A stretch of 64,000 nucleotides of DNA from Chloracidobacterium sp. (GTDB lineage: Bacteria > Acidobacteriota > Blastocatellia > Pyrinomonadales > Pyrinomonadaceae): NCBI GenBank assembly GCA_015075585.1, contig JABTUB010000002.1, forward strand, positions 248,001 through 312,000, given 5' to 3'. Below, in pieces: positions 34,266 to 36,149 of the stretch. Each line of letters starts with the position of its first letter. Within the stretch, counting starts at the first letter, position 1. A model generated the notes under the pieces. It searched no databases. It was not told the origin of the DNA and saw only the letters and a program-made list of their open reading frames with translations. Position numbers and translations under genes: made by a program.

Positions 34266-35258
34266 TTGGCCTCTTTAGCCCAAACCTCTTTTGCTATGGC
34301 CGCTTCATCACGTCTTGTCCGCAGTTTAGCCCGCTTATTTGTTCCGGCGATCGTTCTTTTTATCGCCGCCGTACTCGCCGGTTCGGTTTGGCTCGTTTAT
34401 ACAGCCGCTCACCCGAAGCCGAGCTCTTACCTCATTACGCCCGAGAAATTCGGCCGCATCAGCTCGCGTGCCGCGCAGATCACTGATGAAACATGGCCCG
34501 CGCACGATGGCACGACACTGAGTGGCTGGCTGCTTCGCGGCGCTCCCAATGCACCGGCGGTCATTCTGTATCACAGATACGAAGTCAACAGATCACACGT
34601 GCTGAATCTCGGCGTCAAGCTGAGCGAAGCGACGGACTTTACGATACTGATGCCCGACCTTCGCTCACACGGCGACCAATTGCAGAAGAAAGGCACCTCA
34701 TTCGGCGGATGTGATACTGAGGACGCGCTTTCGGCCATCGAGTTCCTTCGGGGACTCAGAACGCCCGATCAGATCGCACTGATCGGCAAAGACATCGGCG
34801 TGTACGGAGTTGAGTTGGGTGCATTGACCGCGCTGTTCGCTGCGGCAAAAGATCCGAGCGTAAAAGCTCTCGTCCTCGATTCTGTACCGGAGAATTCCGA
34901 TCAGCTATTGGATGGCATCATCCGCCGTAAATACCCGTTCGCAAATTTCATCACCGCCGGCCTCGCAAAGATCGGGACGCACATCTACTTTTATGACGGC
35001 TGTTATAGCCGCAACTCGACCTGCGACACTGCCCGAAATATCTCTGACAGGAAGGTCTTATTGTTAGCGGGCGTTGACAGTGCGGGATATCAAGAATCGA
35101 CGGCGAAACTCGCTAAGTGCTTTCCTGACAACAACAAGATCGACGTTAAGACGGACCTCAGCCCGTCCGGTTTCAGCATCATCGATGCCTCGATAGAACA
35201 ATCGGACGCCTATCATCAGCGCGTGATCGACTTTTTCCGCTCATCGTTGGCAAATTAA
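34266..35258 (+). CDS. Membrane-anchored alpha/beta hydrolase-fold protein with degenerate active site
   Basis: 330 residues; ATG 34296 is an alternative start. One N-terminal membrane helix (about 25-48) anchors a soluble alpha/beta hydrolase domain. The nucleophile elbow aligns as GVELG (181-185), so the usual Ser is Glu183, and the expected catalytic Asp loop after strand 7 (LLLAGVDSAG) is also atypical. The fold is otherwise recognisable (DLRSHGDQ, the strand VKALVLDS). It is probably a pseudo-enzyme or has a different chemistry. Ends 5 bases before the opposing rhodanese gene. Confidence 0.7.
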   Translation: MASLAQTSFAMAASSRLVRSLARLFVPAIVLFIAAVLAGSVWLVYTAAHPKPSSYLITPEKFGRISSRAAQITDETWPAHDGTTLSGWLLRGAPNAPAVILYHRYEVNRSHVLNLGVKLSEATDFTILMPDLRSHGDQLQKKGTSFGGCDTEDALSAIEFLRGLRTPDQIALIGKDIGVYGVELGALTALFAAAKDPSVKALVLDSVPENSDQLLDGIIRRKYPFANFITAGLAKIGTHIYFYDGCYSRNSTCDTARNISDRKVLLLAGVDSAGYQESTAKLAKCFPDNNKIDVKTDLSPSGFSIIDASIEQSDAYHQRVIDFFRSSLAN

Positions 35259-35263
35259 CGATA

Positions 35264-35683
35264 CTACTGAGTTTTTTCCATCGGATAACCTGCCCGTTTC
35301 CAGGCTTGGGTTCCGCCGAGGAGAGCATAAACACCGGGGATCTTTTGAAGGTTCATTTGGAACGCCAAACTGGCGCTCGTATGCTCGTTCGGTCAGGAAC
35401 AATAGACGATGATCTTCTTGCCCTTCGAAACTTTTTCAAAGGTCGTCGCGGATGAGCCGAGCGGGACGTTGACAGCGCCTGCGATGTGCTCCGCGTTGAA
35501 TGCCGCTTCGTCACGGCTATCGACCATCACCGCCGTTCCCGCGTCGAGATCCTTCTTCGCATCTTCGATCGAAATGCGCGGCACCTCGGAATCACTGCTG
35601 AATTTGTGATAGGGGTCGATCGCCCCCGTTCCGCATGCCGCCAAGAATAATGACGAAATTAGTAAGTACAAGAGAACACGCAT
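35264..35683 (-). CDS. Rhodanese-domain lipoprotein, probable selenoprotein (UGA at the catalytic Cys)
   Basis: Reading through the in-frame TGA at 35393-35395 gives 139 residues from ATG 35683 to TAG 35264-35266. A lipoprotein signal (MRVLLYLLISSLFLAACG, lipobox Cys17) is followed by one rhodanese domain. The domain is intact on both sides of the TGA: MVDSRDEAAFNAEHIAGAVN before, and PNEHTSASLAF plus LLGGTQAWKRAGYP after. The TGA is codon 97, inside the motif YCS-x-PNE, where homologues have the catalytic Cys (CSCPNE). Rhodaneses transfer sulfane sulfur through that Cys. A hairpin fitting bacterial SECIS rules follows. Start is 7 bases after bcp, so they are cotranscribed. A nonsense mutation is the alternative. 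Confidence 0.8.
35360..35378 (-). promoter_or_regulatory. Bacterial SECIS-like hairpin downstream of the UGA codon
   Basis: On the mRNA, GAGCGCCA (35378 to 35371) pairs with UGGCGUUC (35367 to 35360) in an 8-bp stem with one G.U pair, capped by the tri-loop GUU (35370-35368). The loop begins about 22 bases after the UGA and starts with G, matching the bacterial SECIS pattern (small apical loop with a G in its first two bases, 16-37 bases from UGA). It lies inside the coding sequence, as bacterial SECIS do. Confidence 0.72.
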
Positions 35684-35690
35684 CTTAAAT

Positions 35691-36149
35691 CTATTTCTCT
35701 CCAAATGCCGCCAGCACTTCGTCGGCGTGTTTTGCCACATCGACCTTTTCGAAGATCTTTACGATCTTACCATCGTCGATGAGAAACGTCTTGCGAAATG
35801 TGCCCATATACTTTCGTCCGTACATCGACTTCTCGCCCCACACACCGTACGCCTCGACTATCTTATGATCCGTATCCGCAAGCAGATCGAACGGCAATTG
35901 GAATTTAGAGATGAACTTCTTATGCGAAGCCTCATCGTCAACCGAAACGCCAAGCACCGTAATTCCCTTTGAGCGGTATAGGCTGTCGGCATCGCGAAAT
36001 GAGCAAGCTTCCTTTGTGCAGCCCGGCGTGTCATCCTTCGGGTAAAAATACAGTGCCAGCCGTTTCCCTTTGAAATCAGAGAGTTTGACCGTCCTGCCGT
36101 CCTGATCCTTCGCTGTGAAAGCCGGAGCCTTGTCGCCTTCTTTTAACAT
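35691..36149 (-). CDS. bcp: Thioredoxin-dependent peroxiredoxin Bcp
   Basis: 152 residues from ATG 36149; upstream in-frame codons are not supported. The AhpC/Prx fold has the peroxidatic Cys in [15 protein letters not shown], together with the resolving-type second Cys five residues on, as in Bcp. Reduces hydroperoxides with thioredoxin. It precedes the selenocysteine rhodanese gene, so the pair may be a redox/sulfur-stress unit. Divergent from the Cys-cluster protein gene with 52 bases between. Confidence 0.95.

Follow-up and report, generated by a model that had tools for sequence, protein, structure and literature searches.

The 64,000-nucleotide stretch of Chloracidobacterium sp. DNA analysed here (the window) carries on its reverse strand a short gene for a rhodanese-domain protein, directly preceded by the gene for a bcp-type peroxiredoxin (Table 1). 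The rhodanese frame opens with an ATG at 35683, contains exactly one in-frame UGA, at codon 97, and is otherwise intact to a TAG that ends at 35264. The product of read-through, ...IIVYCS-U-PNEHTSASLAF...LLGGTQAW..., includes a complete rhodanese C-terminal half beyond the UGA, as an earlier reading made from the sequence alone had described, and the match to the rhodanese domain (PF00581; 59.5 bits against a gathering cut-off of 22.2) spans the TGA. A putative lipoprotein signal agrees with what that sequence-only reading claimed: a LAAC lipobox can be read directly from the letters, similar motifs are present in most relatives, and the protein is predicted to be an exported lipoprotein, which would place it on the periplasmic side.

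Table 1. Features of the rhodanese locus (positions within the window).
Feature	Position	Strand	Details
Rhodanese-domain selenoprotein gene (predicted)	35264..35683	-	139 residues with UGA97 read as Sec; PF00581, AlphaFold2
In-frame UGA, codon 97 (predicted selenocysteine)	35393..35395	-	TGA in 44/50 copies, TGC/TGT in 6/50, other codons in 0
Cys95 codon, first of the C-x-U pair	35399..35401	-	Invariant in the family alignment
Lipobox LAAC, residues 14-17	35633..35644	-	Sequence; equivalent lipoboxes in most relatives
SECIS-like hairpin GAGCGCCA-GUU-UGGCGUUC	35360..35378	-	+15 to +33 after the UGA
bcp-type peroxiredoxin (AhpC/TSA)	35691..36149	-	PF00578, 141 bits

The bcp stop codon lies 7 nt before the rhodanese ATG, and the adjacency remarked on in the sequence-only reading is a conserved feature of the genus: wherever a same-genus copy comes with sufficient sequence on its upstream side, bcp adjoins the rhodanese gene (69-88% identity), in selenocysteine and cysteine forms alike. 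The two genes probably share an operon and may be co-regulated. On the opposite strand, a 330-residue open reading frame (34266-35258, +) converges on the rhodanese gene; a Pfam search with it gave no match at E 0.001.

Codon 97 and the selenocysteine machinery

In a search of 60 relatives, the rhodanese query matched close homologues, mostly with exactly one internal TGA, and stops of other kinds were confined to distant, low-scoring rhodanese matches. When 50 homologous copies were read codon by codon, position 97 was TGA in 44 and a cysteine codon in the remaining six. At the level of the class, a family profile matched 134 of 162 genomes at E<=1e-18, and every one of the matches listed contains either a single TGA or no stop at all. 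Since the codon is TGA or cysteine in so many genomes, its presence here is not a matter of chance. The pattern of substitutions indicates that the region downstream of the UGA is under purifying selection, with pN 0.12 and pS 0.72 between the present gene and its nearest relative (L024), and with pN 0, that is, no amino-acid change, and pS 0.13-0.26 for the copies L034, L035, L036 and L038.

The sequence-only reading had made its proposal contingent on this comparison and on the presence of a selenocysteine-insertion machinery, all components of which are encoded in the same genome. Profile searches detected selA (549 bits) and selB (349 bits); a tRNA-Sec was found with 74 bits and was annotated by ARAGORN as tRNA-SeC with anticodon TCA. 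The genome also contains selD (358 bits), with one in-frame TGA of its own in the sequence SCAGUVAKF, which fits the U-x-x-K motif given for selenophosphate synthetase (PMC13188914). Together, selA, selB, tRNA-Sec and the UGA-bearing selD lead one to expect selenocysteine decoding of UGA in this organism independently of the rhodanese gene. The selD gene (C1:55080-56000, -; locus L053) is a selenoprotein gene itself, and a possible hairpin, GAGC-GAUCUU-GCUC, lies downstream.

Three other accounts of the in-frame TGA were considered and rejected. A frame that stays open beyond codon 97 might also reflect read-through of UGA, or its reassignment to Trp, Arg or Cys, but this is very improbable: the long open frames of the window (at least 250 codons, called mechanically) end in TAG 15 times, in TGA 14 times and in TAA 14 times, some TGA-form relatives of the gene themselves terminate with TGA, selD has UGA at its known selenocysteine site, and genomes devoid of selenocysteine machinery carry cysteine at codon 97. 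A genuine stop, arising from a nonsense mutation or marking a decaying pseudogene, would agree with standard, mechanical gene calling, which ends the gene at codon 96, but is barely credible for a codon that is never TAA or TAG and that is followed by sequence under purifying selection; indeed, the sequence-only reading had likewise judged a nonsense mutation unlikely here. That the TGA is a sequencing or assembly error for TGC or TGT, a concern also raised in that reading and prompted by the codons of the cysteine homologues, is negligibly probable, as the identical TGA recurs in independent assemblies from dozens of species.

The hairpin downstream of the UGA

As the sequence-only reading had it, an 8 bp hairpin with a GUU loop lies just past the UGA; the loop is located here at +23 to +25. 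Its RNA fold has an energy of -12 kcal/mol (z -2.7), while single-sequence folds of the hairpin copies are not always better than those of shuffled sequences. Several of its bases do not vary in any of the 44 TGA copies (44/44), namely CC on the 5' side, G in the loop and GG on the 3' side, and two of them sit at third codon positions. A small apical loop containing a G has been described for bacterial SECIS elements (PMC1088965), and the loop G found in all of the TGA copies corresponds to this feature. The stem varies in its outer half, which some TGA copies do not preserve. Pair 21-33 is U-A in 20, C-G in 13 and unpaired in six of 39 aligned TGA copies; pairing amounts to 80%, and to no more than 46% when the partner is slid by 1-3 columns.

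A 48-base covariance model, which spans protein-coding sequence besides the hairpin, recovered 13/13 TGA copies outside its training set (E<=1.2e-7); the cysteine copies score lower on it, some of them still matching because of the shared protein-coding sequence. A wider control set was assembled by searching genome contigs with the codon back-translated as cysteine, which yields cysteine forms only, and the full CC-G-GG signature was present in just 5/75 of these copies. When the model was run against the organism's own genome for further selenoprotein genes, nothing above noise was retrieved except the rhodanese gene.

Exchange of selenocysteine and cysteine within the genus

Within the genus, the form of the gene follows the machinery. 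All 29 of the 29 TGA-form genomes have selA above the cut-off and tRNA-Sec above the gathering score, whereas five cysteine-form genomes (G006, G007, G012, G015 and G027) have neither. The sixth cysteine-form genome, G017, an assembly that is 75% complete, has a tRNA-Sec while selA was not found in it, which may reflect either the incompleteness of the assembly or a selenocysteine machinery in decay. Two further genomes carry, respectively, the machinery with no gene of the family (G009) and neither of the two (G026). The association has a Fisher p of 4e-6, or of 2e-5 if G017 is counted as machinery-bearing, values that overstate independence, the same-genus genomes being kin. On a tree of bcp and rhodanese together, the minimum number of changes between selenocysteine and cysteine is three, at least two of which are forced by well supported branches. 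The simplest reading of these sequences is replacement of selenocysteine by cysteine upon loss of the machinery, the direction of change being the presumed one. Three such changes in one genus provide natural selenocysteine/cysteine pairs with the same bcp neighbour, which should be useful for asking what selenium buys the enzyme. Pyrinomonas methylaliphatogenes (L082:3196-3243) has a cysteine form that retains the full SECIS-like signature, as if selenocysteine had been lost recently.

The conservation of the codon, the presence of the machinery, the conserved SECIS-like hairpin and the exchange for cysteine where the machinery is absent jointly identify the rhodanese as a selenoprotein. Judged from this comparative evidence, UGA97 is almost certainly decoded as selenocysteine, a conclusion that the sequence-only reading had put forward as probable. 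Decoding would be carried out by SelB and tRNA-Sec with the help of the hairpin just past the codon.

Active site, known relatives and possible function

In the motif Y-C95-S-U97-P-N-E-H-T-S, the first of the two columns is invariantly cysteine and the second is selenocysteine or cysteine in 35/35 members. When the domain was modelled with AlphaFold2 (pLDDT 91.7), the best solved matches were rhodaneses, for example 3nhv and 3tp9, with Z up to 17.4. In this model a strand stops at the residue preceding Cys95 and a helix follows from four residues past Sec97, so that Sec97 lies in the active-site loop. Which of the two residues holds the canonical rhodanese position is ambiguous. From Sec97 to the GG motif there are 26 residues, the ordinary distance, in 31/35 members, and phmmer sets residue 97 on the Cys of CGGGFRS in 6mxv. 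On the other hand, the conserved N-side Asp is 40 residues from Cys95 in 20/35 members, a distance that also separates Asp from the catalytic Cys in two of this genome's ordinary rhodaneses, and the alignments with 3nhv and 3tp9 place Cys95 opposite the Cys of their YC. The sequence-only reading had put the UGA exactly at the catalytic cysteine; this is borne out only in part, as the C-side spacing fits Sec97 but the N-side spacing fits Cys95.

These observations bear on how the selenoprotein might work. Sec97 could be the canonical sulfurtransferase residue, acting as a selenopersulfide carrier and not as the redox partner of a Cys, as its C-side spacing and the 6mxv alignment would suggest; this is a possible but on balance doubtful reading, given that Cys95 is invariant, is itself canonical by N-side spacing and is aligned with the Cys of YC in 3nhv and 3tp9. 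The case for redox-pair chemistry is about evenly balanced. Here, Sec97 would pair with the invariant Cys95 as C-x-U in the active-site loop, and its selenolate would most likely attack a periplasmic substrate of the sulfane-sulfur or peroxide type. Cys95 would then resolve the intermediate as a selenenylsulfide, and a periplasmic thiol donor might reduce the latter. The Cys-Sec pair may serve a redox or sulfane-sulfur role.

CxU seleno-rhodaneses have been catalogued previously, as Rhodanese-like form 3 (PMC13188914 Table 1) and as COG0607 form 2, CxU (PMC9312934), and with C95-S-U97 in a rhodanese domain the present protein has the defining arrangement of form 3. The acidobacterial lipoprotein, bcp-linked branch is therefore a member of this known kind. 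The curated family NF041203 (rhodanese_LYCAU, 'rhodanese-related (seleno)protein') likewise comprises a rhodanese domain with selenocysteine in C-x-U; it was matched by 35/35 members scanned at E<=1e-5 and ranked first among the families for all 11 proteins with a full listing. Its motif is LYCAU, whereas that of the present family is mostly YC[ST]U, and the protein described here is a predicted lipoprotein with its gene beside bcp. Since the scores seen all fall below the curated cut-off of 115 (87.6 bits for this protein and 114.3 for the best of 35 relatives, the relatives being scored with the domain only), the protein is called a CxU seleno-rhodanese and is not filed in the NF041203 equivalog.

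Other known systems are more remote. TsoB (NF045694), a rhodanese/DsbD fusion-like selenoprotein, also ties a selenocysteine-containing rhodanese to a membrane redox part, but it has two selenocysteines (UxxxxU) and a DsbD-like part, and scores only ~24 bits here. The seleno-rhodaneses of the Sargasso Sea and GOS data (PMC1088965, PMC2398784) are selenocysteine sulfurtransferases that share the downstream SECIS hairpin with its apical-loop G; they come from marine metagenomes, however, and belong to COG2897, cd01449 or COG0607 without the CxU motif. GlpE (1gmx) and 3tp9 are single-domain rhodaneses of the same fold (Z 15.7 and 17.4, respectively); GlpE-type proteins have one catalytic cysteine, in contrast to the C-x-U of the present protein, in which the stretch from Cys95 to GG is two residues longer.

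A 2006 survey counted four selenoproteins in three families in Acidobacteriota (PMC1794560), and a literature search for selenocysteine, rhodanese and Acidobacteriota together found no publication. For this phylum, in which little selenoproteome literature was found, the present work adds a widely conserved selenoprotein branch. Mechanical ORF calling ends the gene at codon 96, and the sole curated model able to name these proteins has a cut-off above the scores of these members.

Several related arrangements were noted. Three genomes (G008, G011 and G034; loci L057, L058 and L059) carry a tandem duplicate of the gene, and this second copy is devoid of the lipobox Cys but has a signal-like N terminus. 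Two further families of the class have a VTT/DedA-type membrane domain fused to a related CTU seleno-rhodanese (L073:974-1969, -; L075:350-1357, +). The bcp context, the signal-like tandem copies and the VTT fusion all point to the cell envelope. More speculatively, and with less confidence than the readings of the active site given above, a class-wide acidobacterial branch of extracytoplasmic Cys-x-Sec rhodaneses might, together with bcp, constitute a selenium-dependent sulfur or peroxide defence of the envelope, with a catalytic cycle unlike that of known sulfurtransferases. One same-genus genome (G019) encodes, in addition, a second, distant CTU seleno-rhodanese paralogue (L074).
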